Part shown: piece by piece, positions 999 through 25,483 of the stretch
How positions within the stretch are numbered: the stretch's first letter is position 1
Layout of the letters: each line of letters starts with the position of its first letter
From: Cellulophaga algicola DSM 14237
Lineage (GTDB): Bacteria; Bacteroidota; Bacteroidia; Flavobacteriales; Flavobacteriaceae
Length of the DNA: 64,000 nt
Assembly (NCBI RefSeq): GCF_000186265.1
Contig: NC_014934.1
Span: forward strand, 3,472,001 to 3,536,000
Reading direction: 5' to 3'
Notes under the pieces: model-generated
The model's database searches: none
What the model was told of the DNA's origin: nothing
Seen by the model: the letters and a program-made list of their open reading frames with translations, nothing else
Position numbers and translations under genes: made by a program

Positions 999-1052
999 GA
1001 CGCTTTAATTTTACGTTGGAATAAAATTACCCAACTTCATGCTATAAAAGAA

Positions 1053-1064
1053 TGATATATATCA
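1053..1064. promoter_or_regulatory. Crp/Fnr-type operator TGATATATATCA, divergent usp/trx promoter
   Basis: A perfect palindrome lies in the 119-bp divergent spacer. Its centre (1058.5) is 29.5 bp from the first base of a minus-strand -7-like element (TAATTTTA, 1029 to 1022). It is also 29.5 bp from a plus-strand one (TAAATTTA, 1088-1095). One site could therefore activate both usp and thioredoxin from about -41.5. The spacing is read from the sequence; the binding protein is inferred. Confidence 0.75.
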
Positions 1065-1117
1065 GGTCTTTACTGTTCTATATGTTATAAATTTATAATT
1101 CAAAAAAGAATAGAACG

Positions 1118-1414
1118 ATGAAAAGTAGTTTCGATAAAATAATAGACTCTGATACACCAGTATTAATTGATTTTTTTGCCGATTGGTGTGGTCCATGTAA
1201 AAGTTTGGCACCTATTTTAAAACAAGTGAAAGAAGAAATGGGTGATGCCGTTAAAATTGTAAAGATAGATGTTGATAAGAACCAATCTTTAGCAGCAAAA
1301 TATCAAGTAAAAGGGGTGCCTACCATGATGTTGTTTAAAAATGGAAAACAACTTTGGAGGCAATCAGGAGTACTTCCTAAAAATGATATTGTGACTGTTA
1401 TTAAAACAAAGTAA
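1118..1414 (+). CDS. trxA: Thioredoxin
   Basis: This is a 98-residue single-domain thioredoxin. The active site W23-C-G-P-C27 sits in ADWCGPCKSLAP, and the cis-proline loop is visible as KGVPTMMLF. There is no signal peptide, so it is a cytoplasmic dithiol reductant. It is slightly shorter than the usual 105-110 residues at the N-terminus. It stands alone on the plus strand between Usp genes, which is unusual for a housekeeping trx. It shares the palindrome at 1053-1064 with the divergent usp gene, so it is probably an accessory, stress-induced thioredoxin. The symbol follows family resemblance only. Confidence 0.9.
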   Translation: MKSSFDKIIDSDTPVLIDFFADWCGPCKSLAPILKQVKEEMGDAVKIVKIDVDKNQSLAAKYQVKGVPTMMLFKNGKQLWRQSGVLPKNDIVTVIKTK

Positions 1415-1427
1415 GGGTACTCATTTT

Positions 1428-2267
1428 TTATTCGTGTAAAACCAAAAACGGTACGTTGGTATGGTAGCTTATTTCTTCTACAGTTGGGCGGAATAAGATG
1501 CGCTCTAAAAAATTTAAGTTTTTAGCTACCATAACTAGCATATCTACGCTTTCAGTAGTTGTAAATTCATCTATAGCCGTGTCTAAATGTTGCCCTTTTA
1601 AGTTACTGAAATTGTGTGTGATATCTTTGAAATAATAGGCTAAAAACTCCTTATTCTTAGTTTGTAAATTACTTAGCGTTTCGTCTTTACTCTCAATATG
1701 TAAAAAATTAAGCGCTGCATTAGTTAGTAATGTAATATCTTTTAAGAGCGATAATATATGTAAGTTGTAATCAATAATATAATCAGTAGGAAAACCTATT
1801 TTCTTTGGCTTATGGTATGTTGTTTTCTCTGGTACCGCTAAAACTGCACATTTTACTTTTGTAATAACATTGCCTGTATTACTCCCTAAAGCTATTTTTT
1901 TTAAGCCAGAAGCTCCTTTAGTTCCCATGATAATTAGGTCTATCTTTTTACTGCTTACCTCATTTTTTATGTGTTCAATAAAAAAACCATAGCTTGCTGA
2001 GATATGAAAAATATGCTTTGTGTTAAATGGCAATTCTTCAATGCGCTGTAAGAGCACATCAAGTTTTTTTAAACTCTCTTTTAGTAACTCTTCTTCAATT
2101 AATTCTGGAGGTAATACCATGGCGGTTTCCCCTGCAGATGCGGCTAGTACAGGGCTAATATGAGTAATGTAAAACGTACATTTAGATTTTTTAAATAAAG
2201 ATAATCCGTAGGCAATAGCGTTCCAAGAGTTTTCAGAAAAATCTGTTGGGAAAAGTATGTTTTTCAT
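1428..2267 (-). CDS. Universal stress protein, tandem UspA domains
   Basis: This 279-residue double UspA protein starts MKNILFPTDFSENSW. The first domain has MGTKGASG...GSNTGN, the expected nucleotide-binding loop. The second domain starts KIGFPTDYI and is degenerate. It is the second gene of a two-gene operon: the upstream usp stops 15 bp before this start, so it should depend on the promoter with the palindrome at 3184-3195. Its 3' end faces the thioredoxin gene with only 13 bp between them. It is most like the usp at 3222-4058 at the C-terminus (both end SYHTNVPFLVLHE or similar), which suggests local duplication. Confidence 0.92.
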   Translation of the reverse strand: MKNILFPTDFSENSWNAIAYGLSLFKKSKCTFYITHISPVLAASAGETAMVLPPELIEEELLKESLKKLDVLLQRIEELPFNTKHIFHISASYGFFIEHIKNEVSSKKIDLIIMGTKGASGLKKIALGSNTGNVITKVKCAVLAVPEKTTYHKPKKIGFPTDYIIDYNLHILSLLKDITLLTNAALNFLHIESKDETLSNLQTKNKEFLAYYFKDITHNFSNLKGQHLDTAIDEFTTTESVDMLVMVAKNLNFLERILFRPTVEEISYHTNVPFLVLHE

Positions 2268-2282
2268 GCGTTTGGTTTTTAT

Positions 2283-3128
2283 TTAGCGCGATAAATTTTG
2301 AAGTACTAAAAATGGTACATGTATCTTAAGGCCTATTTTGTCTACTGTAGACCTAAACAGCATGTCTTCTAAAAATGAATGTCGAGAATTTACCATCACA
2401 AGAAGATCTATATCTTTTTCTTCAATGCTTATCATTATTGCATTTAGTCTATTTTTTACGGGTGTTTGCTCAAAACTTAAAAAAGTATTAGGTAAACTTT
2501 CTTCAAGGAATTGTTTGTTATCTAACTGGCGTAAACTTAAAGTTTCAAAATCTGAGATATGGAGACAATAAACTGTAGATTTAAATTCATGCGCTAAAGC
2601 GTTTAATAGTTTTAATTCGCGACGTTTGTAGGGCAAATTATAATCTGTAGGGAATAGGATGTTTTTGGGCTGTTGGTAGCTATAGGTTTCCGGAATTGCT
2701 AGTACAGGGCATTTTACATATTTAAAGACCTGAACAGTTTGGCTTCCAAAAGTTATTTTTTTATCGGCTGTTTGTCCTTTTGTGCCCATGATTATGACAT
2801 CAATATTGATCTCATTGACCGTATCATTTACAGCATCTACTAAAGATTCAAAAATGGCTAAGCCTTTGTATTCATGCTTAGGATTGTGATTTTTTTCTTG
2901 TTTATCGGTTATTAGGTTACTGAGTTGTTTTTTAGCCTGTTTTTCAATACTAGTTCTGTATTCAGAAATAGATAAATCTGTGTTGTTTTTTAACGTTCCA
3001 TAAACTTCATCTGCATAGGCGTGAATAAAATAGAAAATTGTTTGTTCACATTTATATAAATCCAAAGCATAAGAAATAGCATGCATTGCATTTGTAGAAA
3101 AATCAGTTGGGATCAATACAGTTGTCAT
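2283..3128 (-). CDS. Universal stress protein, tandem UspA domains
   Basis: This is a 281-residue double UspA protein. The N-terminal strand is TTVLIPTDFST, the first-domain loop is MGTKGQTADKK...GSQTVQ, and the second domain begins NILFPTDYNLPY. It is the promoter-proximal gene of a two-gene usp operon. Its promoter shows -7 TAATTTTG (3160 to 3153) preceded at the class II distance by the palindrome at 3184-3195. No membrane or secretion signal is present. Function beyond the family is not recognisable. Confidence 0.92.
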   Translation of the reverse strand: MTTVLIPTDFSTNAMHAISYALDLYKCEQTIFYFIHAYADEVYGTLKNNTDLSISEYRTSIEKQAKKQLSNLITDKQEKNHNPKHEYKGLAIFESLVDAVNDTVNEINIDVIIMGTKGQTADKKITFGSQTVQVFKYVKCPVLAIPETYSYQQPKNILFPTDYNLPYKRRELKLLNALAHEFKSTVYCLHISDFETLSLRQLDNKQFLEESLPNTFLSFEQTPVKNRLNAIMISIEEKDIDLLVMVNSRHSFLEDMLFRSTVDKIGLKIHVPFLVLQNLSR

Positions 3129-3183
3129 AGCATTTTATTTAAGATATGACTTCAAAATTATCTTATGATATGCTAATTCCCTA

Positions 3184-3195
3184 TGACAAATGTCA
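3184..3195. promoter_or_regulatory. Crp/Fnr-type operator TGACAAATGTCA before usp operon
   Basis: The arms TGACA and TGTCA are perfect. The centre at 3189.5 lies 29.5 bp upstream of the -7 element TAATTTTG of the usp operon starting at 3128. It has the same geometry as the sites at 1053 and 4113 but with a C/G variant of the half-site. Confidence 0.72.
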
Positions 3196-3221
3196 TACTT
3201 CAGATAATTAATAAAGTAGGC

Positions 3222-4058
3222 TTATTCATGAAGTACAAAAAAGGGAATTTTTGTATTATAACTTATTTTTTTAATGGTAGAATTAAATAAGAGTTGTTGT
3301 AGGTAGTTTAAGTTTTTGGCCGCTATGATAGTCATGTCAATCCTATTGGTACGTGTAAAGTCTTCAGTAGCGCCCTTAATATTTTTATTTTCTAAGCTAT
3401 GAAAACTATAATTATCTTCAAAAACTTCATCTAAATATTCAAGTAAATAGCGTTTGTTTTTTTCTTGAGGAATGCTTAATGCCTCAGTTACCAAAACATT
3501 CATCACATTTAAAAACCCATTGGATACCTGAACAATTTCAGTTAAAGATTCTAAGATATCGAAAGAATAGAAATTATTAAAGTTTGTCTGAAAAGCTATA
3601 TTTTTTATGGGCTGATATGTTGTGTTTTCGGGTATGATTAATAAATTTGAGGCTACTTTAGTGATCACATCTTCTGTATTACTTCCAATAAATTTTTTTG
3701 TAAAGTTTGTATTTCCTTTAGAGCCCATAGCAATAAGATCTATCTTTTTTTCTAGAAGGGTTCTACGAATAATAGCAATAAAATTTCCAAACTCTTGTAA
3801 AGCATAGAATTGGTGCTGTTCTGATGGGTGTTTTTTTGAAATTTCTTTTATGTTTTCTTCAAGAAGCTCCATTTTAGAATGTGTATCAACCTTATTATAA
3901 TTTAAGGCTAAGCCATTAGATACTATTCCAGATTCACTTAAAGAACCAATATTCATGATATAGAATGTACAGGCTGTATTTTTATGAAAAGCAACAGTGT
4001 ATTCTAATGCATTAAAGGAATGCTCAGAAAAATCGGTAGGTACTAAAATCTGCTTCAT
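3222..4058 (-). CDS. Universal stress protein, tandem UspA domains
   Basis: This 278-residue double UspA protein starts MKQILVPTDFSEHSF. The first-domain loop reads MGSKGNTNFTKKFIGSNTED. The second domain begins IAFQTNF, with PTD changed to QTN, so that half has probably lost nucleotide binding. It is a single-gene unit. Its promoter has an exact TACTTTTG -7 (4089 to 4082) with the palindrome at 4113-4124 upstream. It is the fifth Usp within 4 kb. Confidence 0.92.
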   Translation of the reverse strand: MKQILVPTDFSEHSFNALEYTVAFHKNTACTFYIMNIGSLSESGIVSNGLALNYNKVDTHSKMELLEENIKEISKKHPSEQHQFYALQEFGNFIAIIRRTLLEKKIDLIAMGSKGNTNFTKKFIGSNTEDVITKVASNLLIIPENTTYQPIKNIAFQTNFNNFYSFDILESLTEIVQVSNGFLNVMNVLVTEALSIPQEKNKRYLLEYLDEVFEDNYSFHSLENKNIKGATEDFTRTNRIDMTIIAAKNLNYLQQLLFNSTIKKISYNTKIPFFVLHE

Positions 4059-4112
4059 TAAATGGTTTAAATACTTAAGCGCAAAAGTATAAAGCCATTA
4101 GTTTCTAAAAAA

Positions 4113-4124
4113 TGATAAATATCA
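4113..4124. promoter_or_regulatory. Crp/Fnr-type operator TGATAAATATCA before usp
   Basis: The centre at 4118.5 is 29.5 bp from the first base of the exact -7 element TACTTTTG. The site lies 55 bp from the usp start codon. It also stands 32 bp from the end of the adjacent receiver-Crp gene, the candidate binding protein. Confidence 0.75.
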
Positions 4125-4156
4125 TCACGTAGTAAAATTAGTGTTCTTTAAATTTA

Positions 4157-5209
4157 TTAAGTGATGTATTGTAGTGCCTTAAGTTCTTTTATTTTTATAT
4201 TTCGACCATCAATCTCAATTAAACCTTCTTTTTTGAAACCCGATAAAGTACGTATTAAACTTTCTGTGGCAATACCTGCAACACTAGCTAGATCACTTCT
4301 AGAAATTTTTATAGGATCATTAGTTTGGGTATTCATAATCTCCGAAAACTGTAAAAGTGTTTGAGCTGTTTTTTTTCGGACAGAGCTGTAAGCCATTTGC
4401 AAGAGTTGCTGTTTAATCTCTTTTATATTTCCTGATAATAATTCTACCAATTCTAAGGATATATTGTGATTTCTTTCTAAAATTGCCTTTAAATTTTCTT
4501 TTGAAATACCGGCAAGAACAACATCTTCCATTGCAGTAGCAGATTCTTGATAAGGTACATTTTTTAAGAATGATGTAAAGCCTAAAAAATCATCTGCTCG
4601 GTATAAAGACGTAATTAATTGTTTCCCATCTTCATCCATAGAATGGCATTTAATAACTCCTTTTAATACTAAAAAAATAGTGTTGGAAGCATTACCTTCT
4701 TTGTAGATGATGCTGCCTTGGGAGAAGGTCAATTCGTCTCCATTATCATCAAAAAAATTCTTCAATTCATTTAAATCCAGAATGCTGTCTTCTGAGTTTT
4801 CTTCTTTGTTATGCGCAGCAGTTGCATTTAGCTTTAAAATCTCATGTTTGGCTAGCCTACTTTCAATAGCGCTAATTAAATCTTCTTCTTCAAAGGGCTT
4901 GGTTAGATAATCATCTGCACCTAAATCCATCCCTTTCCTAATTTCCTTATGTTCTGTTTTTGCAGAAAGGAATATAAACGGAATTTGTTTTGTGATTTTA
5001 TCCTCATTAAGGGCTTTTAAAACACCATAGCCATCTACTTCTGGCATCATAATATCACAAAGAATAATATCTGGCACTAATTCTTTAGCAGCTAGAATTC
5101 CTATTTTACCATTTGGAGCGGTGGTTACTGCGTAACCAGCAAGATCTAAAAGTTCTTCCGTATTCTCACGAAGGGCTCTGTCATCTTCAATTAATAAAAT
5201 AGTTTTCAT
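4157..5209 (-). CDS. Response regulator with CNBD and Crp/Fnr DNA-binding domain
   Basis: This 350-residue protein joins a CheY receiver (1-125; acidic pocket E8/D9/D10, phospho-acceptor D52 in CDIMMP, K104) to a cyclic-nucleotide-binding-type beta-roll (about 150-265) and a Crp winged helix (about 275-345). The recognition helix has E316 and R320 (TESLIRTLS), the pair that in Crp and Fnr contacts TGA/TCA half-sites. There is no Fnr-type cysteine cluster, so it should not sense oxygen through iron-sulfur chemistry itself. The upstream LOV kinase ends 4 bp before its start, making them a cognate pair. I infer that it binds the TGAY-N4-RTCA palindromes across this island. Confidence 0.9.
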   Translation of the reverse strand: MKTILLIEDDRALRENTEELLDLAGYAVTTAPNGKIGILAAKELVPDIILCDIMMPEVDGYGVLKALNEDKITKQIPFIFLSAKTEHKEIRKGMDLGADDYLTKPFEEEDLISAIESRLAKHEILKLNATAAHNKEENSEDSILDLNELKNFFDDNGDELTFSQGSIIYKEGNASNTIFLVLKGVIKCHSMDEDGKQLITSLYRADDFLGFTSFLKNVPYQESATAMEDVVLAGISKENLKAILERNHNISLELVELLSGNIKEIKQQLLQMAYSSVRKKTAQTLLQFSEIMNTQTNDPIKISRSDLASVAGIATESLIRTLSGFKKEGLIEIDGRNIKIKELKALQYIT

Positions 5210-5213
5210 GTGC

Positions 5214-7100
5214 TTATAATTTTAAATCTTTTGGTATGGTAATCGTGAAAATAGACCCTTCATTCTCAATGCTTGAGAACTCTAATGTGGTACTTAAGTT
5301 TTCTAGATGTTGCTGAGCAATGTTTAAGCCAATTCCTGTTCCTTGGGTTAACAAAGCATTTTCCGCTCTAAAGTAGCGATTAAAAATGTGTTTCTGTTCT
5401 TCTATAGGAATACCTATACCATGATCTACCACTTTAATATTAATTGTTGTTTCATTATTTTCTACAACAATATCAATAGCGGTGTTTTCTGGAGAGTATT
5501 TAATAGCATTATGTACTAGATTAGATAAGGCCAATGTTAGCGTTTTTTCATCAAAATATATAAAAATATCGTCTATATTTCTTGGGTAACTAATACGTTG
5601 CCCAGTTTTAAGTAACATATTAGCATTGTAGATGACTTCATCTAATAATTTGCTTAATGGAAACTCATCTAAGTCATAATTTATTTTTCCGGAATCTAAA
5701 CGTTCAACCGATAAAAAATCAGTCAGAATAGTATCAAGGTAACGCACTTTACTTTTTATGGTATTTACATGCTTATCTCTTTTCTCTTGTTGTTCTGTTT
5801 GGGTGTATTTGGCAAGTAAGGTAATAGAAGTTAAAATACTACTTAAAGGGGTTTTAAACTCATGAGAAACTAATGATAGGAATCTTGTTTTTAACTCGTT
5901 AAGTTCTTTTTCTTTTGCTAAAGCTTCCGTTAATTGTTTGGTACGCTCTTGAACGGTTTTTTCTAATTTTAAGGTGTAATTTTTACGGTCTGTAATGTCT
6001 AATATTATAGCTAAAAAAACATCTAGATCTCCAAATCTAGATAATTGTAAGTGCACTTCTGCAGGGTATTGTGTGCCATCCTTTCTTTGGTGCGTAGTTT
6101 CAAACTCTATTTTCTCTTGTTCTTTGTTAATAAGCGGAATCAATATTTCTCTGAATTGGTTCTCCGTATAATCTGGTTTAATATCTATAGGAGTAAGCTT
6201 TTTTAATTCCTCTAAGGTATATCCAATGTTGTTTTGCGCCCCTTTATTCGCATTTAAAAAGAGTAAAGTTTCTTTGTCAAATAGAAATATTTCATTTAAA
6301 GATTCATTAAAAATCTTAGCCCAATGTTCTTTTTCTTGTTGTGTTTTTACACGTTCTGTAACATCATTTTGTATCCCGATATAGTTGGTGATTAATCCAG
6401 ACTTATCTCTAATAGGGGTGATGTATAGATCGTTATAGAATAAAGTACCGTCTTTTTTATAATTACGAACAATTGCTTGAGAACTTTTGCCATTTTTAAT
6501 GGCATTACGCATATTGGTAATACACTCTTGATTTTTGTCATTACCTTGTAGAAAACGGCAATTTTTTCCTATAGTTTCTTCTTCTGAATATCCTGTAAGC
6601 GTTAGGAATGATGTGTTGCAATAGATAATAGGGTTATCTGGTTTTAACGCATCAGAAATAACAATACCATTAGAGGCAGATTGTAGTGCCTCACTCCTCA
6701 TTCTTAAATCTTTTTCGGCTGCTTTACGGTCTGTAATGTCAATGATAAGTGCCATGACATACGTTGTGTTGTAAATCTCAAACGGATTTAGACCAGCTTC
6801 TAAAGGAAATTCATCTCCGTTTTTTCGGACACCAAACAATTCACGACCATGCCCCATTTGTCGCTTCTCACTCTTAGAAATAAAATTATCTACATGATGA
6901 TCATGGTTAGGATGGTATCTTTTAGGAATAAGTATATCAAGCGGTTGCCCAATAAGCTCGTCTTTTTTATACCCGAACATTTGCTCAGTAGAAGAATTAG
7001 TGGCAACTATGGTTTGCTTTTTGTCTACAACGATAATACCCTCTGAAACGCCTTCTGAGAGAAGATTAAAAATAGCACTGTTCTTTTCAAAAGTTTGCAT
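5214..7100 (-). CDS. PAS-LOV-PAS sensor histidine kinase
   Basis: The 628 residues comprise PAS (about 8-130), a LOV-type PAS (about 135-255), a third PAS (about 258-375), a coiled linker, HisKA with H413 in SHEFKTPLS, and a HATPase (N-box and GTGIGLN near 600). The second PAS has GKNCRFLQ (178-185) with C181, the residue that forms the photo-adduct with flavin. It also has N213, N223 and Q244 at the positions expected for flavin contacts, so it is a bona fide LOV candidate. No membrane segment is present; it is cytoplasmic. It is co-transcribed with the receiver-Crp regulator. Light sensing is inferred from the motif, and redox sensing through flavin is an alternative. Confidence 0.9.
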   Translation of the reverse strand: MQTFEKNSAIFNLLSEGVSEGIIVVDKKQTIVATNSSTEQMFGYKKDELIGQPLDILIPKRYHPNHDHHVDNFISKSEKRQMGHGRELFGVRKNGDEFPLEAGLNPFEIYNTTYVMALIIDITDRKAAEKDLRMRSEALQSASNGIVISDALKPDNPIIYCNTSFLTLTGYSEEETIGKNCRFLQGNDKNQECITNMRNAIKNGKSSQAIVRNYKKDGTLFYNDLYITPIRDKSGLITNYIGIQNDVTERVKTQQEKEHWAKIFNESLNEIFLFDKETLLFLNANKGAQNNIGYTLEELKKLTPIDIKPDYTENQFREILIPLINKEQEKIEFETTHQRKDGTQYPAEVHLQLSRFGDLDVFLAIILDITDRKNYTLKLEKTVQERTKQLTEALAKEKELNELKTRFLSLVSHEFKTPLSSILTSITLLAKYTQTEQQEKRDKHVNTIKSKVRYLDTILTDFLSVERLDSGKINYDLDEFPLSKLLDEVIYNANMLLKTGQRISYPRNIDDIFIYFDEKTLTLALSNLVHNAIKYSPENTAIDIVVENNETTINIKVVDHGIGIPIEEQKHIFNRYFRAENALLTQGTGIGLNIAQQHLENLSTTLEFSSIENEGSIFTITIPKDLKL

Positions 7101-7125
7101 ATTTTCAAAGTTAAAACTTTAAAAC

Positions 7126-7137
7126 TGATTATTATCA
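7126..7137. promoter_or_regulatory. Crp/Fnr-type operator TGATTATTATCA before LOV kinase
   Basis: The half-sites TGAT and ATCA are perfect. It lies only 26 bp from the kinase start codon, unlike the roughly 55-bp distance elsewhere. A likely -7 (TACTTTTT, 7151 to 7144) lies upstream of it, so the palindrome would cover the transcription start. This suggests negative autoregulation rather than activation (inference). Confidence 0.55.
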
Positions 7138-11534: not shown

Positions 11535-11591
11535 ATAATTTACAATCAGATAATTAATATCGAAAGTAGGAAAGATTTATTTTTTTAGACC

Positions 11592-11603
11592 TGACGAATA
11601 TCA
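11592..11603. promoter_or_regulatory. Crp/Fnr-type operator TGACGAATATCA, divergent patatin/sigma promoter
   Basis: The centre at 11597.5 is 29.5 bp from the minus-strand -7 TACTTTCG (patatin operon). It is also 29.5 bp from a plus-strand CAACTTTG (11627-11634; sigma-like gene). It is the second site in the window positioned to serve both directions. Confidence 0.7.
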
Positions 11604-11664
11604 TAGTAAACTTTTATAATATGTTACAACTTTGAGGGAGATTACTTAATAATAAACAAAGATT

Positions 11665-16719: not shown

Positions 16720-16750
16720 CAAAAATAGCACAATATTTGGTGTTTTTAAA

Positions 16751-16762
16751 TGATAAATATCA
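16751..16762. promoter_or_regulatory. Crp/Fnr-type operator TGATAAATATCA before ubiB-mgtC operon
   Basis: It is identical to the site at 4113-4124. The centre at 16756.5 lies exactly 29.5 bp from the first base of the perfect -7 TATTTTTG of the ubiB promoter. The ackA 3' end is 32 bp further right on the same strand. Confidence 0.75.
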
Positions 16763-16793: not shown

Positions 16794-17978
16794 TTATACG
16801 TTGATTAAGCGATATGCTTGCTTAGCAATTTCTAACTCCTCATTGGTCGGTATCATCAACACTTTTACGTAAGCACCTTTTTTATTAATCTCCAAGAGTG
16901 TTTTTGATCTTGTATTATTTTTATCCGTATCCAGGGTAATTCCCATAAATTCTAAATCAGTACAGACCATTTCACGAATTAAAGCAGAATTTTCACCAAT
17001 ACCAGCAGTGAAAATAATTGCATCTATACCGTTGAGAATAGCAGCATAAGCTCCAATGTATTTTTTAATGCGGTACGTATTCATTTGTAAGGCTAGTATG
17101 CAATCTTGATTGCCATTTGCAGCTTCTGTTTGTATGTCTCTTAAATCGCTAAAACCAGTAAGTCCTAGCATGCCACTTTTCTTTATCAAGAGTTCATTCA
17201 CTTGTTCTAAAGTATAACCAAGAGTTTCTACTAAATAGAAAATTACGGCATGATCAATATCGCCACTTCTAGACCCCATTATTAACCCGTTTGAGGGTGC
17301 AAATCCCATACTGTGGTCAATACTTTTTCCGTCCTTAATTGCGGTCATACTACAGCCGTTTCCTAAATGAATAGAAATAATTTTAGAAGATTTTAATTGT
17401 AAATATTCAATAGCTTTTTCTGAAACATATTTATGACTGGTGCCATGGAAACCATAAACTTGTACTTTGTTTTCATAGAATTTCTTTGGCAGTGCATATC
17501 TTTTTGCTACCTCAGGGATAGAATGATGAAAAGCGGTATCAAAAACAGCGACTTGTTTGGCATTAGGGAAAATTTCTTCCGCCAATTCTATACCTTCTAA
17601 GTTATGCGGATTATGTAAAGGGGCTAATGAAAATAGGTTTTTAATTTTCTCTTTTACAGAGGCATCAATTAGTGAGGTGTCAGAAAATGCTTTTCCTCCG
17701 TGCACCACACGATGGCCAACTATAGCAATTTCTGCTGCATTTGTAATCACTCCTAAAGAGGGATCTAATAATAAATCTGCTATTTTGAGTAGCCCTATTT
17801 TATGACTTAAAATAGCTTGAGTTTCTTCTAGTTTTGAAGTGTCAGTGCTGTATTTTAATATAGCATTTTCACTACCAATTCGCTCTATGAGACCTTCGCA
17901 AACTACACGTTCTGAAGGCATGCTTATTAGTTGATATTTTATAGAGGAACTGCCAGAGTTTATTATAAGTATATTCAC
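16794..17978 (-). CDS. ackA: Acetate kinase
   Basis: This 394-residue acetokinase makes ATP from acetyl phosphate. Signatures are LIINSGSSSIKY at the N-terminus, GHRVVHGGKAFS, VFDTAFHHSIPE, HGTSHKYVS, SIHLGNGCSMTAI and TAGIGENSA. The start codon is GTG (complement of 17976-17978); the first encoded residues MNILIINSGSSS fit the family start exactly. It is the second gene of a pta-ackA operon with a 28-bp gap. The pair forms the acetate overflow/fermentation route and fits the energy-stress theme of the island. Confidence 0.97.
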   Translation of the reverse strand: MNILIINSGSSSIKYQLISMPSERVVCEGLIERIGSENAILKYSTDTSKLEETQAILSHKIGLLKIADLLLDPSLGVITNAAEIAIVGHRVVHGGKAFSDTSLIDASVKEKIKNLFSLAPLHNPHNLEGIELAEEIFPNAKQVAVFDTAFHHSIPEVAKRYALPKKFYENKVQVYGFHGTSHKYVSEKAIEYLQLKSSKIISIHLGNGCSMTAIKDGKSIDHSMGFAPSNGLIMGSRSGDIDHAVIFYLVETLGYTLEQVNELLIKKSGMLGLTGFSDLRDIQTEAANGNQDCILALQMNTYRIKKYIGAYAAILNGIDAIIFTAGIGENSALIREMVCTDLEFMGITLDTDKNNTRSKTLLEINKKGAYVKVLMIPTNEELEIAKQAYRLINV

Positions 17979-18006
17979 GTAAAATTGGTTTTATGGTTGG
18001 TGTTAA

Positions 18007-20100
18007 TTATAGTCCTTCTGCCTGAATCGCGGTTATAATTACGGTATTAAAGATATCTTCAACAGTACAGCCACGACTTAAATCGTTTACCGGTTTATTT
18101 AAACCTTGTAACATGGGACCAATTGCTAAGGCGCCTGTTTCTCTTTGTACGGCTTTATAGGTGTTGTTTCCTGTATTTAAATCAGGAAAAATAAATACAC
18201 TGGCTTGCCCTGCAACTTCAGAATCAGGAAGTTTACTTTTTCCTACTTTACTATCTACCGCAGCATCATATTGAATAGGGCCTTCTACTTTTAGATCAGG
18301 TCGTTTAGTTCTAATTAGCGCCGTAGCTTTTCGTACTCTATCTACATCTTCACCAGTACCAGAAGCACCAGAAGAATAGGATAGCATGGCTACTTTAGGT
18401 TCTATTCCAAAGGCAGCACTCGTAGCCGCAGAAGAAATGGCAATTTCAGATAATTGTTCGGCAGTAGGGTTAGGGTTAATGGCGCAATCGCCGAAGATGG
18501 TTACCCGGTTAGGCAAACACATAAAAAATACGGAGGAAACTAAAGAAACACCTGGCTTGGTTTTTATAAATTGCAATGCAGGTAGTATGGTATGTTGCGT
18601 TGTATGTACTGCTCCCGAAACCATCCCGTCTGCATGGCCTTTATGCACCATCATCGTCCCAAAATAAGACACATCTTCCATAAGATCTTTTGCCATAGCT
18701 AGATTTACATTTTTATGCTTCCGCAATTCATACAAAGTTGTTGCGTAGTCTAAAAAGTTAGGAGATGTTTTTGGATCAATGATAGTAATTTCATTAGGGT
18801 TAAAAACAAGAGCAAGCTCTTCCATTTTAGCCGCAATCTGCGCTTTATCACCTAAAAGAGTTAGCGTTACAGCTTCTACTTCCAGTAATTTCTTTGCTGC
18901 TATTAAAATTCGCTCGTCAGTACCTTCTGGTAATACAATATGTTTTTTGGCAGATTTAGCTCTTTTTAACAAGTTGTATTGAAACATTCTAGGCGTAATA
19001 CCTTCAGCCTTAAACGTAATTAGACGTTCTGCAAGATCATTAACAGGAATGTGTTTTTCAAATTCTTGAATAGATGTTGTTATTTTTTCAGTATTATCCG
19101 CGTATATTTTTGGTTTTATAGCACCAATTTTATTGGTAACAGCAAAGGTTCCTTGATTCACAGAAATTATCGGAATAATATCAGAAAGACCTTCAATTAG
19201 TTTTATAATAGAATCTTCAGGAATTAGCCCTCCTGTAAGTACAATGCCTGATAAGTTGGGGTAATTGGTAGAGATATTAGCTTGTAAAGCACCAAGAATA
19301 ATATCTGCTCGATCTCCTGGGGTAATAACAAGACTGTCTTTTTTTAAATGGGTTAAATAATTACGGAGTTGCATGGCTCCTACGCTAAAGCCGTTAGCTT
19401 GGTTGTTTAAATAGTCTGCTCCAAATAATACTTTGGCATCTAATTGACTCGCTATTTCTTTTACAGTAGGATTCCCTAAAGTAGGATTAGCAGGAATAGC
19501 ACCGATAAGTACTTTCTCTGGTAATTTTTTCTTTAAGGCAGCAACTACTAATTCTAAATTTTCTGGTTGTACTTTATTGGCTACGGTTAGTAATACTTCC
19601 ACGCCTTTTTCTCTAAAAGAATCAAATCCCATATACAGATTGCCCACTAATTCTTCTAATGTTTTACCAGCACCGCTTGTAATAATAACAGCGGGAATCC
19701 CTAAATTTTTAGCTACTAGTACGTTTATATCCCATTCAATAATAGCACCTTCTCCAGAGAAATCGGTTCCTTCTACCAGAACAAAATCAAAACGATCTTC
19801 AATCGCTTTAAATTTATGAATGATATGACTAATGATTTCATCGTCTTTGTCTTGATTTTTTAACTGTAGAACTTTACTCCGAGTATAGGCATAAGCCTCT
19901 TCAGGTTTCATATCCACTTCAAAATGAGATAATACGGTATGGATATGATTGTCTATTTGATCATTTTTAAAATCATCAACAATAGGGCGGAAATAGCCTA
20001 CTTTAGCTGTTTTTCCTAATAAAATTTGCATTAGACCTAATGACACAATCGATTTACCACTATTGGGTTCAGTGGTAGCAATATAAATGGCTTTACTCAT
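18007..20100 (-). CDS. pta: Phosphate acetyltransferase
   Basis: The 697-residue long-form Pta converts acetyl-CoA and phosphate to acetyl phosphate. The N-terminal P-loop/CobQ-like domain (TEPNSGKSIVSLG) is followed by a DRTGG-type regulatory domain (about 215-340) and the C-terminal catalytic PTA domain starting at RAKSAKKHIVLPEGTDERI, with SSGASGTGEDVD and the GPMLQGLNKPVNDLSRG end. Length matches the E. coli-type enzyme. Its promoter shows an exact -7 TAACTTTG (20132 to 20125), but the upstream palindrome is of a different type from the rest of the island. Confidence 0.97.
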   Translation of the reverse strand: MSKAIYIATTEPNSGKSIVSLGLMQILLGKTAKVGYFRPIVDDFKNDQIDNHIHTVLSHFEVDMKPEEAYAYTRSKVLQLKNQDKDDEIISHIIHKFKAIEDRFDFVLVEGTDFSGEGAIIEWDINVLVAKNLGIPAVIITSGAGKTLEELVGNLYMGFDSFREKGVEVLLTVANKVQPENLELVVAALKKKLPEKVLIGAIPANPTLGNPTVKEIASQLDAKVLFGADYLNNQANGFSVGAMQLRNYLTHLKKDSLVITPGDRADIILGALQANISTNYPNLSGIVLTGGLIPEDSIIKLIEGLSDIIPIISVNQGTFAVTNKIGAIKPKIYADNTEKITTSIQEFEKHIPVNDLAERLITFKAEGITPRMFQYNLLKRAKSAKKHIVLPEGTDERILIAAKKLLEVEAVTLTLLGDKAQIAAKMEELALVFNPNEITIIDPKTSPNFLDYATTLYELRKHKNVNLAMAKDLMEDVSYFGTMMVHKGHADGMVSGAVHTTQHTILPALQFIKTKPGVSLVSSVFFMCLPNRVTIFGDCAINPNPTAEQLSEIAISSAATSAAFGIEPKVAMLSYSSGASGTGEDVDRVRKATALIRTKRPDLKVEGPIQYDAAVDSKVGKSKLPDSEVAGQASVFIFPDLNTGNNTYKAVQRETGALAIGPMLQGLNKPVNDLSRGCTVEDIFNTVIITAIQAEGL

Positions 20101-20124
20101 GTAAATGATATATTATAGTAGTCT

Positions 20125-20169: not shown

Positions 20170-20223
20170 TTCTCTCAAGAAAACGAATTAAATTTTATTG
20201 TTTTACGTTGTAAATTTTACGAG

Positions 20224-20676
20224 TTATATCTCTTTTCTCTTACCTGTAATTTCGGTAATATTAATTCGGAATACAGTGGGTATACCTTTGGAATAAGATT
20301 TGTTAGAAAACTCGCTTATAAACTCTGCTTCTTTATTTTCCTTCTCAAAAATCAACTTTTTTACCCCCTCACTAAACTCATGTAGTTTTTGCTTAGCATC
20401 AATACCGGTAAGTTCTTCGAAAGTGCCATGGACTAAAACAGATTGCCAATTGTTTACCGATGTTATTTCTTGTACTGCTAAGGATACATGCTTGTTCTTG
20501 CGCATGGCTTTTAGCTTTAGACCATCAGCAGTATAGCTTATTATTGAACCCTCTTCTTTATCAAAATAATACGTAATTGGTATCACGTACGGGATGTTCT
20601 GAGAGATAACGCCTAGGTTACCAAAATAATTTTGAATAAGGATGCTTATGCTCTGGCTTTTGCTTAAATCGGTCAT
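20224..20676 (-). CDS. Pyridoxamine 5'-phosphate oxidase-like flavin-split-barrel protein
   Basis: The 150-residue protein resembles the PNPOx-like/nitroimidazole-resistance (NimA-type) group. It has an N-terminal LSKSQSISILIQNYFGNLG helix and strand, IPYVIPITYYFD, the central YTADGLKLKAMRKNKHVSLAVQEI and WQSVLVHGTFEEL. Such proteins bind FMN or heme on a split barrel. I place the start at 20676 (MTDLSKSQ) because family members begin just before this helix; an in-frame start at 20763 would add 29 unsupported residues. Substrate unknown. It sits alone between pta and the divergent exporter operon. Confidence 0.8.
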   Translation of the reverse strand: MTDLSKSQSISILIQNYFGNLGVISQNIPYVIPITYYFDKEEGSIISYTADGLKLKAMRKNKHVSLAVQEITSVNNWQSVLVHGTFEELTGIDAKQKLHEFSEGVKKLIFEKENKEAEFISEFSNKSYSKGIPTVFRINITEITGKRKEI

Positions 20677-20830
20677 TTTATTGGATGTAATTGATGTTGT
20701 TTTTACGAGTCTACTGATTGCTTCAACAAAAATAATATGCTTGGAGGTCTTAAAATATGACATTAGTCATTCATTTATTTAGATGCTATAGCGAAAAAAG
20801 ATTCTTTAGTAACAAAAAAATACGTTTACA

Positions 20831-20842
20831 TGATTAATCTCA
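20831..20842. promoter_or_regulatory. Weak Crp/Fnr-type operator TGATTAATCTCA before exporter operon
   Basis: One half-site base differs from the island consensus. The centre at 20836.5 is 29.5 bp from TTATTTTG (20866-20873), a 7/8 match to TAnnTTTG, ahead of the adaptor gene at 20898. The shared spacing is the main reason to list it. Confidence 0.4.
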
Positions 20843-20897
20843 TAGGTAAAGAATATTACTTATGTTTATTTTGTAGTGTAACGATGATTTCTTTCAA

Positions 20898-21974
20898 ATG
20901 AAAATAGTATCTCTAGTTTTTATCTTATTTTTAGTTTCATGTGGAAGTAAACAAGAGAAAACACTTCCTGTAGTTAAAAAATTAACGGAGTCTGTGTATG
21001 CTTCTGTGACTATTGAACCAGATAGTTTGTATGAAGCACACGCTGTGGTTAATGGTATTCTTGAGCGTAATTTAATAGAAGAAGGGGCATTTGTTTCAAA
21101 AGATACTCCTCTAATGCATATCACAAACTCATCAAGTGAATTAACGGCAGAAAATGCCTTACTATCATTGCAGCTCTCTACAAGTAATTACCAAGGGAAT
21201 TCAACTGTTTTAAAAGAGCTAAATGATGATATTAAAACAGCAGAATTAACCTTAAGAAATGATTCTATAAATTTTAAACGGCAAGAAAACTTATGGAATC
21301 AAAATATTGGCTCAAAAATAGAATATGATACTAGAAAACTAGCTTACCAGCGTTCTGTAAACCAACTAAAGGTCTTGTTGAATAAGTTTAATCGGACTAA
21401 AAAGGAATTACAGACACAAGCTAAGCTCGCACAAAACACGTATAAAACGTCTAAAATTAACACCGATGATTACACCATTACTAGTAAAATTAATGGAAAG
21501 GTATATGCGTTGTATAAAAATGCAGGTGAAAATGTGACCACGATGGAACCATTAGCATCCGTAGGTAGTGCCACGGATTTTATTATAGAATTGTTGGTGG
21601 ATGAAGTAGATATTGTGAAAATTGAAAAAGGTCAGAAAGCTTTAATCAGCTTGGATGCGTATTCATCTACCGTATTTGAGGCTTTAGTTACTAAAATATA
21701 TCCTCAGAAAGATTCGCGTACACAGACTTTTAAAGTAGAAGCTTTGTTTATAAACATGCCGGATAAGCTATACCCAGGGCTTTCAGGAGAAGGTAATATT
21801 GTGATTTCTGAAAAAAATAACGCGTTAATCATTCCTAAAGAATATCTAGTGAATGGCAATACTGTTTTAACGGAAGATGGTTTGGTGCCTGTCGTTATAG
21901 GATTACAGAATTTAAATGAGGCAGAAGTTATAAAAGGAATTGCTGCGGATACTGAAATTATAAAACCAGAATAA
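20898..21974 (+). CDS. HlyD/MFP-type periplasmic adaptor lipoprotein
   Basis: This 358-residue adaptor has a lipobox at FLVSC15, a beta-barrel/lipoyl half (EAHAVVNGILERNLIEEGAFVSKDTPL), a long helical hairpin (about 75-185) and a return lipoyl half (YTITSKINGKVYALYKNAGENVTT). The barrel and membrane-proximal domain follow. It links an inner-membrane ABC permease to an outer-membrane exit. It overlaps the permease gene by one base, so adaptor, permease and ATPase form one MacAB-like operon. No TolC-like gene is in the operon. Substrate unknown. Confidence 0.88.
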   Translation: MKIVSLVFILFLVSCGSKQEKTLPVVKKLTESVYASVTIEPDSLYEAHAVVNGILERNLIEEGAFVSKDTPLMHITNSSSELTAENALLSLQLSTSNYQGNSTVLKELNDDIKTAELTLRNDSINFKRQENLWNQNIGSKIEYDTRKLAYQRSVNQLKVLLNKFNRTKKELQTQAKLAQNTYKTSKINTDDYTITSKINGKVYALYKNAGENVTTMEPLASVGSATDFIIELLVDEVDIVKIEKGQKALISLDAYSSTVFEALVTKIYPQKDSRTQTFKVEALFINMPDKLYPGLSGEGNIVISEKNNALIIPKEYLVNGNTVLTEDGLVPVVIGLQNLNEAEVIKGIAADTEIIKPE

Positions 21975-23236
21975 TGACGAATTGGCCTGTAATCCTTAAC
22001 ATCGCAAAAACTCATTTGCTGACGAAGTTAAAGTCTACGTTAACCGCAGCACTTGGGGTAACTTTTGGGATTGGAGCGTATATTACCTTGGTTAGTTTTA
22101 TGACCGGTTTAAATACGATGCTTGATGATTTGATTTTAAATCAGACCCCTCATGTTCATTTGTACAATGAGGTTAAACCTACAGAGAAACAGCCCGTAGC
22201 ACGCTTTGATGAAATACAGCAATCTTTTCAATTTATACATTCTGTAAAGCCCAAGCAAAATCAGAAAAAAATACATAATGCGTTGCCTATTTTACAGTAC
22301 TTAAAAGAGGATAAAAAGGTAAAAGGGGCGACGCCTCAAGCTAGAGCTCAGATTTTTTATATTTCTGGTGCTATTGAATTAGGTGGTAATTTAATAGGCG
22401 TAGATATTATGCAGGAAGTTAAGCTTTCAAATATTAGAGACTATATAGCACAGGGCACTCCTGAAGATTTGAAAAACAGTGACACCGGTATTTTACTAGG
22501 AGCAGGCTTAGCTAAAAAAATGTCCTTGAAAATAGGAGATAGGGTACAGGTGAGTACCATAAAGGGCGACCTTTTTCCGCTTAAAATAGTAGGAATATAC
22601 CAAAGTGGTTTAGCAGATGTAGATAACAGCCAAAGTTTTGTAAATTTAAAAACGGTACAGCGAATTTTAGGGGAAACTCAAAATTATGTTACAGATATTA
22701 ATGTAAAATTAAATGAAATTAATGATGCACCAGAATACTCAAAAAAACTAGCCAGTTTATTCTCTATTACGGCAACAAGCATTAATGAAGCAAATGCACA
22801 ATTTGAAACAGGAACAACTATTAGAAATCTTATTACCTATGCCGTATCCATTACCTTATTAATTGTAGCAGGATTCGGGATCTATAATATCCTAAATATG
22901 CTGATTTATGAGAAAATGAAAGATATAGCCATATTAAAAGCAATAGGGTTTTCGGGTAATGATGTGCAGCTTATTTTTATGAGTCAGGCAATGATTATTG
23001 GTTTGGTAGGTGGCCTCTTAGGCCTTTTAGTGGGTTTTGGATGCGCTGTACTTATAGATCATGCTCCTTTTAAAACAGAAGCCTTACCTACCATTGACAC
23101 ATTCCCCGTAAATTTTAGTGTAAGCTATTATATAATCGGAATTGTATTTGCATTAGTATCCACTTTTATTGCTGGGTATTTACCAGCAAATAAAGCCCGT
23201 AAAATTGATCCAGTAAAAATAATCAGAGGTACATAA
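21974..23236 (+). CDS. ABC transporter permease, FtsX/MacB type
   Basis: The 420-residue permease has an N-terminal transmembrane helix (about 17-40), a periplasmic MacB-type domain (about 45-270), and three C-terminal helices with the FtsX signature (LITYAVSITLLIVAGFGIYNI; EKMKDIAILKAIGFSG; ANKARKIDPVKIIRGT). It should act as a mechanotransmitter rather than a classical pore. It lies between the adaptor (1-bp overlap) and the ATPase (8-bp gap). LolCE-like lipoprotein sorting is an alternative to drug or peptide export. Confidence 0.9.
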   Translation: MTNWPVILNIAKTHLLTKLKSTLTAALGVTFGIGAYITLVSFMTGLNTMLDDLILNQTPHVHLYNEVKPTEKQPVARFDEIQQSFQFIHSVKPKQNQKKIHNALPILQYLKEDKKVKGATPQARAQIFYISGAIELGGNLIGVDIMQEVKLSNIRDYIAQGTPEDLKNSDTGILLGAGLAKKMSLKIGDRVQVSTIKGDLFPLKIVGIYQSGLADVDNSQSFVNLKTVQRILGETQNYVTDINVKLNEINDAPEYSKKLASLFSITATSINEANAQFETGTTIRNLITYAVSITLLIVAGFGIYNILNMLIYEKMKDIAILKAIGFSGNDVQLIFMSQAMIIGLVGGLLGLLVGFGCAVLIDHAPFKTEALPTIDTFPVNFSVSYYIIGIVFALVSTFIAGYLPANKARKIDPVKIIRGT

Positions 23237-23244
23237 TAGCGCAT

Positions 23245-23919
23245 ATGGATTTAGTTCTAGAATCAAAAAATATAAATAAGCATTTTTTAAAGCCTAAAGA
23301 TTTTCACGTTTTAAAAGACATCTCCTTCCGAATTGAAAAAGGAGAGTTTACTTCTATTATGGGAAAATCTGGATCAGGAAAGTCCACTTTGCTCTATATC
23401 TTATCTACCATGGATACAGACTATACAGGAGAATTGTATTTGAATAATGAATTGGTGACCGGTAAACAGCATCAAGAACTTTCTAGAATCAGAAATAAAT
23501 ATGTAGGTTTCGTCTTTCAGTTTCACTATCTACTTTCAGAATTTACAGTGTTAGAGAATGTGATGTTACCCGCAAAGAAACTAGGCGAAAAATCGCATCA
23601 AGAAATTGAGTATTTAGCGATGGAGAAATTAAAAATGTTAGCTATAGATAAGCTAGCTTTACAACGTGCTTCTAGAATTTCGGGAGGAGAAAAACAACGA
23701 GTAGCTATTGCTCGAGCTTTAATTAATAATCCTGTAATTTTAATGGGAGATGAACCCACAGGAAATTTAGATAGTCATAATGCAGATAATGTGTTCAATA
23801 TTTTCAAGCAATTGAAAGAAGAAGAAGGACTATCTTTATTAATTGTAACTCATGATGAAGATTTTGCAAATAAAACGGATCGCATTATCCAAATGGAAGA
23901 TGGTAGGATTATACCTTAG
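23245..23919 (+). CDS. ABC transporter ATP-binding protein, MacB/LolD type
   Basis: A 224-residue ATPase. Walker A GKSGSGKST, a Q-loop near VFQFHYLLSEF, signature RISGGEKQR, Walker B VILMGDEPTGNLDS and the switch His in LLIVTHDE are all present. The length and the ALQRASRISGGE context match the LolD/MacB family that pairs with FtsX-type permeases. It is the third gene of the exporter operon. Confidence 0.93.
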   Translation: MDLVLESKNINKHFLKPKDFHVLKDISFRIEKGEFTSIMGKSGSGKSTLLYILSTMDTDYTGELYLNNELVTGKQHQELSRIRNKYVGFVFQFHYLLSEFTVLENVMLPAKKLGEKSHQEIEYLAMEKLKMLAIDKLALQRASRISGGEKQRVAIARALINNPVILMGDEPTGNLDSHNADNVFNIFKQLKEEEGLSLLIVTHDEDFANKTDRIIQMEDGRIIP

Positions 23920-23953
23920 GAAAACACAAAACTATAATTTAAATATTTGATAA

Positions 23954-24172
23954 ATGAAAAAAGTACATAACGTATTAACGGAGATTTCTGTTTTGATTAA
24001 AAAGATAGAAACAGATTACCCAGAACTATATCAATTTTTAGATGAAAACCCTATAACCTTACCTACAGAACTTCATCCAAAATTAGACAGCAATACACTC
24101 GAAGATTATTTAACAGATCTAAAAAGTTTATTAAAACATCATATTGAAAATCATATTAAATCTAAAAAATAA
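23954..24172 (+). CDS. Hypothetical 72-residue protein
   Basis: A short, soluble, mostly helical protein (two helices around LDENPITLPTELHPKLD) with no known motif. It follows the ATPase gene by 34 bp in the same direction and ends 2 bp before the convergent cbpM gene, so it is likely the last gene of the exporter operon. Typical base composition and clean spacing argue that it is real. Function not recognised. Confidence 0.65.
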   Translation: MKKVHNVLTEISVLIKKIETDYPELYQFLDENPITLPTELHPKLDSNTLEDYLTDLKSLLKHHIENHIKSKK

Positions 24173-24174
24173 GA

Positions 24175-24468
24175 CTAAAAATCGTCAAACCGTTGAAGTT
24201 TTTGTCTTAATAGACGTATTTCGTTTTGCATCGCCATAGTGCGTTCTAATAGTTGTTGTACGGCATCAAGACCTTCAATGTTAATATTGAGGTCTTGATG
24301 TAAGCGCAGCATTTTTTCTACCTTGGGCAACTCTTCCAAAGAAATAAAAGGACTGTCATTTACGATTTTTAATTCGATGATGTCATAGTCATATAATTCA
24401 GTAACGAATGCTACTTCTATTTCGTGACCACTACAAAAATCATTAAGTTGTATTAATTGTGTTTCCAT
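24175..24468 (-). CDS. cbpM: CbpM-like chaperone modulator
   Basis: This 97-residue helical protein of the MerR-like CbpM family inhibits or tunes the DnaJ homologue CbpA. Recognisable features are the family-typical start (IQLNDFCSGHEIEVAFVTELYDYDII), the central PKVEKMLRLHQDLNINIEGLDAV and the terminal coiled segment ending in LRQKLQRFDDF. It lies 10 bp downstream of the CbpA-type gene, the standard arrangement. Confidence 0.88.
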   Translation of the reverse strand: METQLIQLNDFCSGHEIEVAFVTELYDYDIIELKIVNDSPFISLEELPKVEKMLRLHQDLNINIEGLDAVQQLLERTMAMQNEIRLLRQKLQRFDDF

Positions 24469-24478
24469 GTGTTTCCGA

Positions 24479-25390
24479 TTATAGGTTTGTGGCTGCTAAT
24501 GCTTCAAATAATTCTTTTTGTTCTTTTGTTAAATTAGTAGGTATTTTAATTTGATAGGTAATATAAAGATCTCCAAATTGATCTTCTTTTTTGTATTTAG
24601 GGAGTCCCTTTCCTGATAATTTTATTTTGGTACCGTTTTGTGTTTCTGGTTTTACTTTCAATTTTACTTTTCCTGATAAGGTATCTATAGTGATCTCATC
24701 TCCTAAAATAGCTTTGGTCAAAGGCAGTTCTATTGTTTTGTAAAGATTAGCACCTTCACGCGTAAACTCCGTATTGTTTTTTACGGTGAATTTTATGAAT
24801 AAATCTCCGGCAGGACCGTTATTAACCCCAGGTCCGCCATGGCCTGTAATTTTAATGGTTTGTTGGTCTTCTATCCCTGCAGGAATTGTAATCCGAATAT
24901 TTTTATTGTTTACCGCTAAAGTCTGTTTATGCGTGGTTAGAGTTTCTGTTAAGTTCAAGGTAATTTCTGCATTATAATCTTGCCCTCTAAACTTGGTGTT
25001 TTGTCTTGAGGATCTAAAATTACCTTGTTGCCCCCCACCAAACATACTTTCAAAGAAATCTGAGAAATCTTCATTAGATTGTCCGCCAGAAAAACCTCCA
25101 GAACCACCATAGTTTTGTCTGCTACGCTGATTTTGACTTTGTTTTTGTCTTTCAAATTCATCAGCATGTTGCCAATCTTTTCCGTATTGGTCATACTTTT
25201 TGCGCTTCTCTACATCACTAAGCACTTCATTGGCCTCATTAATTTTTTTGAAATTTTTCTCTGCTTCTACATTATCCGGATTTAAATCTGGATGATGTTT
25301 CCGTGCCATTTTGCGATATGCTTTTTTGATGTCGCTAGCAGATGCACTTTTAGTAATGCCTAAAACCTTATAATAATCTATGAATTCCAT
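24479..25390 (-). CDS. cbpA: CbpA-type DnaJ co-chaperone
   Basis: The 303-residue class B J-protein contains a J domain (1-70) with H33-P34-D35, a Gly/Phe/Ser-rich linker (about 85-130) and two beta-sandwich C-terminal substrate domains. It has no zinc-finger cysteine repeats, separating it from DnaJ proper. It stimulates DnaK under stress. It is the first gene of the cbpA-cbpM operon. The promoter carries TAACTTTA (25447 to 25440) as -7 with the palindrome at 25472-25483, placing this chaperone in the same putative regulon as the Usp genes. Confidence 0.93.
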
Positions 25391-25471
25391 ATGCTTATGA
25401 TCCCGTATTAATTTAGTTTTACGTTTAAAAAACTAACTATAAAGTTACGAAGAGAACTGGTCATTAAAAAA

Positions 25472-25483
25472 TGATATATGTCA
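25472..25483. promoter_or_regulatory. Crp/Fnr-type operator TGATATATGTCA before cbpA
   Basis: The centre at 25477.5 is 30.5 bp from the first base of the near-consensus -7 TAACTTTA, one base longer than the spacing of the other sites. It is the rightmost member of the set; none was seen further right. Confidence 0.65.

Follow-up and report, generated by a model that had tools for sequence, protein, structure and literature searches.

Palindromes at a fixed distance from promoter boxes point to probable class II promoters throughout the family and to a likely reader encoded beside them in Cellulophaga algicola

Geometry of the island promoters

The window analysed here is a stretch of 64 kb (C1:3472001-3536000, GC 32.5%) from the 4.89 Mb one-contig genome of Cellulophaga algicola DSM 14237. 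Its first 25.5 kb hold an island in which genes for Usp, thioredoxin, patatin, UbiB/MgtC, PNPOx, an exporter and CbpA/CbpM accompany a sensor histidine kinase (P0002) and a regulator (P0001) in which a receiver domain is fused to Crp-type domains, called receiver-Crp below. Palindromes of the form TGAYNNNNRTCA stand in this island at a fixed distance from promoter boxes of the TAnnTTTG type. Judged from sequence, there is a strong case that this class II arrangement is non-random and shared across the family, and the regulator encoded in the island is its likely reader; a mechanism and a signal are inferred from it.

Exact TGAYNNNNRTCA palindromes were found 12 times in the window against 3.1 expected, a number reached in none of 100 shuffles. 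Nine of them lie in the first 25.5 kb and three past the island, and the one at 6529 is within the kinase gene. Spacing was counted from the palindrome end to the start of the TAnnTTTG box, with at most one box mismatch, on both strands and for spacings of 0-79 nt; a spacing of 23 nt corresponds to 29.5 bp from the palindrome centre to the first box base. It was observed that 23 nt occurs in eight oriented cases while every other spacing occurs at most twice. In 200 dinucleotide shuffles the 23 nt composite of palindrome and box had a mean of 0.055 and a maximum of 1, and the composite with a strict box, observed four times, did not appear in any of them. Rfam gave no match at gathering threshold in window positions 1-27000. 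The predicted elements and the genes that they face are as follows.

1022-1064, minus strand: composite promoter; palindrome 1053-1064, 23 nt, box TAATTTTA at 1022-1029; Usp gene 162-998
1053-1095, plus strand: composite promoter sharing the palindrome of 1022-1064; 23 nt, box TAAATTTA at 1088-1095; thioredoxin gene 1118-1414
3153-3195, minus strand: composite promoter; palindrome 3184-3195, 23 nt, box TAATTTTG; Usp gene 2283-3128
4082-4124, minus strand: composite promoter; palindrome 4113-4124, 23 nt, box TACTTTTG; Usp gene 3222-4058
4157-5209, minus strand: receiver-cNMP-HTH_Crp_2 regulator P0001; phospho-Asp D52, recognition-helix E316 and R320
5214-7100, minus strand: sensor histidine kinase P0002; FixL-like PAS, LOV, further PAS, HisKA-HATPase
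7106-7137, minus strand: proposed autoregulatory site; palindrome 7126-7137, 12 nt, box TAACTTTG at 7106-7113, kinase ATG at 7100
11561-11603, minus strand: composite promoter; palindrome 11592-11603, 23 nt, box TACTTTCG; patatin gene 10716-11534
11592-11634, plus strand: composite promoter sharing the palindrome of 11561-11603; 23 nt, box CAACTTTG; gene 11665-12432, weakly sigma-like
16720-16762, minus strand: composite promoter; palindrome 16751-16762, 23 nt, box TATTTTTG; UbiB gene 15001-16683 and MgtC gene 13722-14990
20727-20769, minus strand: composite promoter; palindrome 20758-20769, 23 nt, box TATTTTTG; PNPOx gene, then on the same strand pta 18007-20100 and ackA 16794-17978
20831-20873, plus strand: weaker composite; palindrome with one mismatch, 23 nt, box TTATTTTG; HlyD-MacB-ABC exporter genes 20898-23919
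25440-25483, minus strand: composite promoter with 24 nt; palindrome 25472-25483, box TAACTTTA; CbpA gene 24479-25390 and CbpM gene 24175-24468

The original prediction had placed the palindromes at 1053, 3184, 4113, 11592 and 16751 at 29.5 bp and that at 25472 at 30.5 bp, with weaker evidence from 20831. On remeasurement all of these positions were right; the site at 20758 had been overlooked. Palindromes 1053 and 11592 have 23 nt boxes in both directions, each facing divergent genes. Such constant spacing between palindrome and box is a mark of class II Crp/Fnr-type promoters.

The position of the palindromes relative to transcription starts can be estimated from Flavobacterium psychrophilum, a member of a large and understudied family, in which mapped starts put the TAnnTTTG box at -12 to -5 (PMC9723704). 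Given that placement, a spacing of 23 nt puts the palindrome centre at -41.5 and a spacing of 12 nt puts it at -30.5. The distances transferred from these starts are consistent with the reading of the palindromes as class II activator sites, with the position of about -41.5 that had been proposed for them. Neither 'Crp' nor 'Fnr' occurs in the main text of the start-map paper.

Distribution in the genome, the family and orthologous loci

A scan of the whole genome had been proposed along with the original prediction and was run with the box TAnnTTTR. Spacings of 22-24 nt gave 44 matches against 4 for the reversed pattern, and spacings of 9-39 nt gave 86 against 50. Exactly 23 nt accounts for 35 of the 86 (17 forward, 18 reverse), while the other 30 spacings average 1.7. 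When 43 of the 44 sites were mapped (2283687 was left out) against open reading frames (ORFs) of at least 60 amino acids (aa), the palindrome centre was outside ORFs in 34 of 35 mapped 23 nt sites, and of the 34 with a downstream gene, 26 have a box that ends at most 70 nt from the start of the longest ORF. The claim that such phasing is hard to get by chance is thus borne out by the shuffles, by the reversed pattern and by the other spacings. It had further been claimed that the sites form one regulon covering the island. The non-random phasing stands, but the extent is genome-wide and a regulon of the island only is ruled out.

Three clusters of sites exist in the genome, the window island being one of them; it extends to at least one Usp gene upstream of the window. 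At 2216-2229 kb sites precede hemN, ccoS, a Usp gene and an Fnr-like gene. The cluster at 3383-3443 kb (L040 to L043) includes pyruvate kinase, a P-type cation ATPase, an MCRA-family protein which we take to be oleate hydratase, ferritin, an ATP-synthase-like operon and a second kinase/receiver-Crp pair; numerous YTAR-type cores were seen in this second island. A further site lies upstream of a cytochrome c gene, after which comes a nosZ-like gene. Of 120 genomes of the family, each from a different genus, 110 carry one 23 nt composite or more; the counts per genome run from 0 to 53, and reversed controls gave 0-4. In the phylum a match was present in 74 of 148 genomes, and outside the class the counts are mostly 0-2 with a maximum of 6.

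The surroundings of P0001 orthologues were compared in 80 loci, the best 80 of 315 candidates, in which related species are over-represented so that the counts are not independent events. The nearest orthologues in a collection of named genomes are those of Arenibacter, Cellulophaga and Maribacter. Composites at spacings of 0-59 nt number 401 at 23 nt, 19 at 24, 18 at 12 and 16 at 11, the rest being 0-8; the letters of the spacer are mostly near background and its length is fixed. A gene with at least 60 nt free upstream was counted as a head, genes were assigned by best match, and a looser box was used. Composites precede the heads of Usp2-like genes in 44/48 cases, Usp3 in 25/26, Usp4 in 30/34 and Usp1 in 19/23, and likewise those of the ccoS homologue (14/14), thioredoxin (12/35) and cation ATPase (4/8), as well as 146 of 511 heads with no match in the C. 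algicola gene set. None precedes the heads of hemN (0/14) or the kinase (0/68), and a palindrome is present in 61 of the 68 kinase heads. The sites at Usp promoters are asymmetric, the base after the palindrome being T in 149/149 and the base before it C or A in 143/149. Homologues of hemN or cco genes lie inside the flanks of 30 of the 80 loci.

Regulator, sensor kinase and the 7126 site

P0001 carries a cNMP-binding fold and HTH_Crp according to Pfam, which places it in the Crp/Fnr superfamily. Its receiver is intact and has the features of a two-component response regulator, with the acidic pair, phospho-Asp D52 and Lys in 81/81 aligned sequences. Recognition-helix E316 and R320 are likewise present in 81/81; Glu and Arg are expected in this helix for Crp/Fnr proteins that read TGA half sites. 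The only invariant Cys in the 81 sequences is C51, beside the phospho-Asp, and the N-terminal Fe-S cysteines of Fnr are lacking. Aligned by eye, the position of the Arg that contacts cyclic AMP (cAMP) in Crp is Glu in 81/81, which makes cAMP an unlikely ligand of P0001. The kinase gene is directly upstream of receiver-Crp in 77 of 80 loci.

Eighty genomes, that of C. algicola and 79 of the other 119 one-per-genus genomes, were sorted by the presence of P0001-type proteins (full length, E <=1e-70; 33 genomes) and of close relatives of the Fnr-like P0003 (E <=1e-40; 49 genomes), distant Crp/Fnr paralogues being counted as absent. The median number of composites is 1 with neither regulator (15 genomes), 10 with Fnr only (32), 14.5 with receiver-Crp only (16) and 27 with both (17). 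In a linear model that includes genome size and ignores kinship among genera, receiver-Crp adds 14.5 composites (t 6.7) and Fnr adds 8 (t 3.5). The receiver-Crp-only class was sampled in nine of its 16 genomes, through 20 stretches selected because they surround a site or the regulator. A gene best matching a Usp is downstream of a site in 8/9 of these genomes. Composites precede hemN in G027, G075, G042 and G040 (the hemN genes of G053 and G054 are without one in the stretch); a composite also stands upstream of ccoS or ccoNO in G027, G054, G075 (at 305 nt from the ORF) and G042 (where the ORF start was probably called early). The proposed link of the sites to the resident receiver-Crp gains support from co-occurrence and from the adjacent kinase.

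A second receiver-Crp type, P0004, may go with a distinct core. YTAR-core composites total 62, with 24 in nine genomes called P0004-bearing and 38 in the other 71; CTAR or YTAG cores, a class picked after the rows had been viewed, number 19 in the nine and 5 in the 71. Membership of the nine was decided by 41-44% identity to P0001 and not by a search with P0004; G047 (43%) and G025 (46%), which were excluded, are without a CTAR or YTAG core, and their inclusion would give 19 in 11. Paralogues may therefore share the geometry and differ in core letters, and at least three Crp/Fnr-type regulators of C. algicola probably share it. Judged by eye, core letters among the matches listed did not distinguish the sites of Fnr from those of P0001.

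The first PAS domain of the kinase, PAS1, has FixL as its best match among PDB structures (E 2.7e-14), followed by DosP. Its His, aligned to what we take to be the heme ligand of FixL, is present in 81/81 kinases, and the aligned Arg in 73/81; against the NCBIfam FixL model P0002 scores 104 bits, the cut-off being 850. PAS2 (window 6350-6700) is LOV-like, with a histidine kinase chain as best match (E 1.1e-34) and an aureochrome LOV at 8.6e-32. The NCRFL signature is present in one of the 81 kinases, that of the window (NCRFLQG), and the other 80 are without it. By reading, the second kinase of C. algicola (L040:9936-13187) also has an NCRFL LOV and a FixL-like PAS. Because the PAS1 His is invariant, NCRFL is confined to one aligned kinase and hemN/cco genes recur in the flanks, the comparison suggests that the conserved signal is oxygen, to which light may have been added locally, with heme as a predicted cofactor.

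The palindrome at 7126 had been called operator-like. It is a separate, often conserved and probably repressive position, and it falls outside the 23 nt geometry: the box TAACTTTG on the kinase strand is at 12 nt, i.e. 18.5 bp and about -30.5. On the opposite strand a box TAACTTTA stands 22 nt away, and no gene follows it. In 63 of 80 loci a palindrome is found near the kinase start, between 120 bp upstream and 40 bp downstream of it, with the kinase box at 10-12 nt in 32 loci; 52 of the 63 also have a looser box on the other side of the palindrome, spaced at exactly 23 nt and facing a divergent gene. This gene encodes 134-148 aa in the eight loci with printed gene maps; a recurrent gene of about 134 aa was noticed in relatives (L060:7985-8389, L131:8254-8661), and no Pfam match was found for two copies and no NCBIfam match for one. 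In the window it is not at the kinase position, the only place looked at, where PfkB lies on the same strand as the kinase. Since the palindrome and the 12 nt spacing are kept in the window without the divergent gene, it is suggested that site 7126 serves the kinase operon itself, possibly by occlusion at about -30.5. Seen from the kinase, the 52 loci with palindrome and box have A before the palindrome in 52 and G after it in 48, opposite to what the Usp promoters show. In 63 of 80 kinases a box could be paired with a start, and because the start codon follows the box after 4 nt in 52 loci the kinase message is probably leaderless.

Interpretation and neighbouring genes

Taking these results together, we consider it probable that the island sites are read mainly by the resident receiver-Crp with its FixL-like kinase, as a FixL plus a fused FixJ/FixK that acts from class II positions under low oxygen. 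The adjacent kinase, with its FixL-like PAS1, would phosphorylate receiver-Crp when oxygen is low. Crp/Fnr-type dimers would then bind the palindromes centred at -41.5 of sigma-A-type promoters, and the bound dimers would recruit RNA polymerase to the Usp, thioredoxin, patatin, UbiB/MgtC, PNPOx (perhaps with pta-ackA), exporter and CbpA/CbpM genes. The site 12 nt before the kinase box would be expected to block the kinase promoter and limit the level of the regulator. A wider proposal for the Flavobacteriaceae is put forward tentatively, with slightly more doubt than confidence: a FixL-like kinase, which in C. algicola bears a LOV domain too, would phosphorylate a receiver-Crp able to take the place of Fnr at -41.5 of hemN, cco and stress genes, while in many species one palindrome would activate the divergent gene (23 nt) and occlude the regulator's own, probably leaderless, promoter (11-12 nt).

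Several observations weigh against this interpretation. C. algicola itself encodes nine proteins with a Crp-type helix-turn-helix, eight of them over the family cut-off, and genomes counted as receiver-Crp only may retain distant paralogues of about 30-36% identity to P0003. Fnr-only genomes also carry the composite, so that the geometry alone names no binder, and G048, an assembly 82% complete and 6% contaminated, has 29 composites with neither regulator. In the 80 loci no composite precedes the heads of receiver-Crp (0/9), CbpM (0/10) or CcoG (0/12), and all 28 hemN homologues follow a same-strand Usp2-like gene with none having its own composite; because of this arrangement it is possible that hemN is read there as an operon from the Usp promoter. 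A FixL-like PAS with its His falls short of proving heme. Finally, 17 of 80 kinases have no palindrome nearby, and in 19 loci, mostly of the Aquimarina type, the kinase box is at 24-26 nt, where repression is unexpected and the palindrome could do the opposite.

Sharing of the sites is a real contender, though held with less than even confidence: Fnr would sense cytoplasmic oxygen and the kinase/receiver-Crp pair would bring a second input (oxygen, light or redox) to one and the same -41.5 site. The near-additive counts in the sorted genomes, the identical spacing, the overlapping cores and the LOV domain of the window kinase all agree with this, while the CTAR/YTAG cores that seem to go with the P0004 type suggest that paralogues may separate sites. 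That the regulon is as described and answers to a signal other than oxygen (light, nitric oxide, redox or quinone state) is rather doubtful; both kinases of C. algicola have a LOV with NCRFL and heme is only predicted, but NCRFL occurs in 1/81 kinases against 81/81 for the FixL-like His, and hemN/cco genes stand in the flanks of 30/80 loci. We regard it as unlikely that the Fnr-like P0003 or another Crp/Fnr paralogue reads the island sites and leaves receiver-Crp a narrower job: the composites of Fnr-only genomes, those before the Fnr-like gene itself, ccoS and hemN in C. algicola, and core letters that by eye are alike in Fnr-only and receiver-Crp-only genomes among the matches listed would fit it, yet receiver-Crp adds more sites than Fnr does and the island-type Usp genes beside receiver-Crp regularly carry the composite. 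Chance or base composition, which at this GC content favours random boxes and could still explain single sites, is refuted for the set by the shuffles, the reversed pattern and the other spacings.

The reading by receiver-Crp and its kinase can be compared with known systems. Class II activation by Crp is centred at -41.5, the position estimated here, and the recognition-helix Glu and Arg are alike, while the Glu at the cAMP-contacting position (aligned by eye) sets P0001 apart. Regulons of Fnr/FnrN also have class II spacing; they share the TGAT-N4-ATCA core and the hemN and cbb3 targets, and differ in that P0001 has a receiver instead of the N-terminal Cys cluster. The FixLJ-FixK/FixK2 systems of Alphaproteobacteria (PMC4999443, PMC5582078, PMC9104804) are alike in the FixL-like kinase, the Crp-type activator, half sites resembling TTGA-N6-TCAA, and gene kinds (hemN, cco, nos, Usp, PNPOx, acetate kinase, J-domain protein, HlyD/ABC exporter). 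The table of FixK2-dependent genes of Bradyrhizobium names oleate hydratase, acetate kinase, PNPOx, cytochrome c, Usp, a J-domain protein, hemN2 and a HlyD/permease/ATPase exporter (PMC9104804). In C. algicola such gene kinds occur either within one of the two receiver-Crp islands or in the hemN/cco cluster, with cytochrome c at the nos locus, a likeness of type and not of orthology. A FixK2 site at 40.5 is reported in nosR (PMC5582078), and FixK2 is auto-repressed in Bradyrhizobium by a mechanism given as unidentified (PMC9104804). In Caulobacterales it was proposed that FnrN has been replaced by FixLJ-FixK on existing sites (PMC4999443), to which the receiver-Crp-only genera are much alike.

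Differences from FixLJ-FixK/FixK2 exist as well. Receiver and Crp domains are in one protein here, the flanks are A/C...T instead of T...A, and the promoter is of the TAnnTTTG type. A separate FixJ (receiver with its own helix-turn-helix) acting on a separate fixK was not found, and the FixJ model gave 41 matches in the genome with none over the 255-bit cut-off (best 99.2). The system would work like FixL-FixJ-FixK, yet it is not counted as a member, because the receiver is fused to Crp and the FixJ model is without a match over its cut-off. A metatranscriptome study predicted MalR-like, carbon-sensing Crp/Fnr homologues in one Flavobacteriales genome, a different reading that concerns other homologues (PMC8510549). 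Among the matches listed in open-licence PMC literature, neither this geometry nor an oxygen system built on receiver-Crp was found described for Bacteroidota. The rule of palindrome, 23 nt and TAnnTTTG would predict oxygen and stress promoters across the family, and the arrangement suggests that the FixL-FixJ-FixK chain has a shortened, two-protein form beyond Proteobacteria. It also provides a natural case for testing whether a site activates or represses according to its position.

Some genes of the island deserve a separate remark. The box of the 20758 site falls inside the mechanically called PNPOx ORF 20224-20763. Since the next in-frame ATG is at 20676 and in the relative G075 a composite stands 24 nt upstream of its PNPOx ORF, the true start is probably later than called, with ATG 20676 the likelier one. 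The acetate kinase gene of the island is without its own composite. The gene 11665-12432 had been called sigma-like; its sigma-70/ECF match of 37.8 bits is below the cut-off of 42.9 and Pfam gave no match, and its product may or may not be a sigma factor. Next to the island, window positions 25568-26707 encode a response-regulator receiver fused to a family 2 glycosyltransferase.

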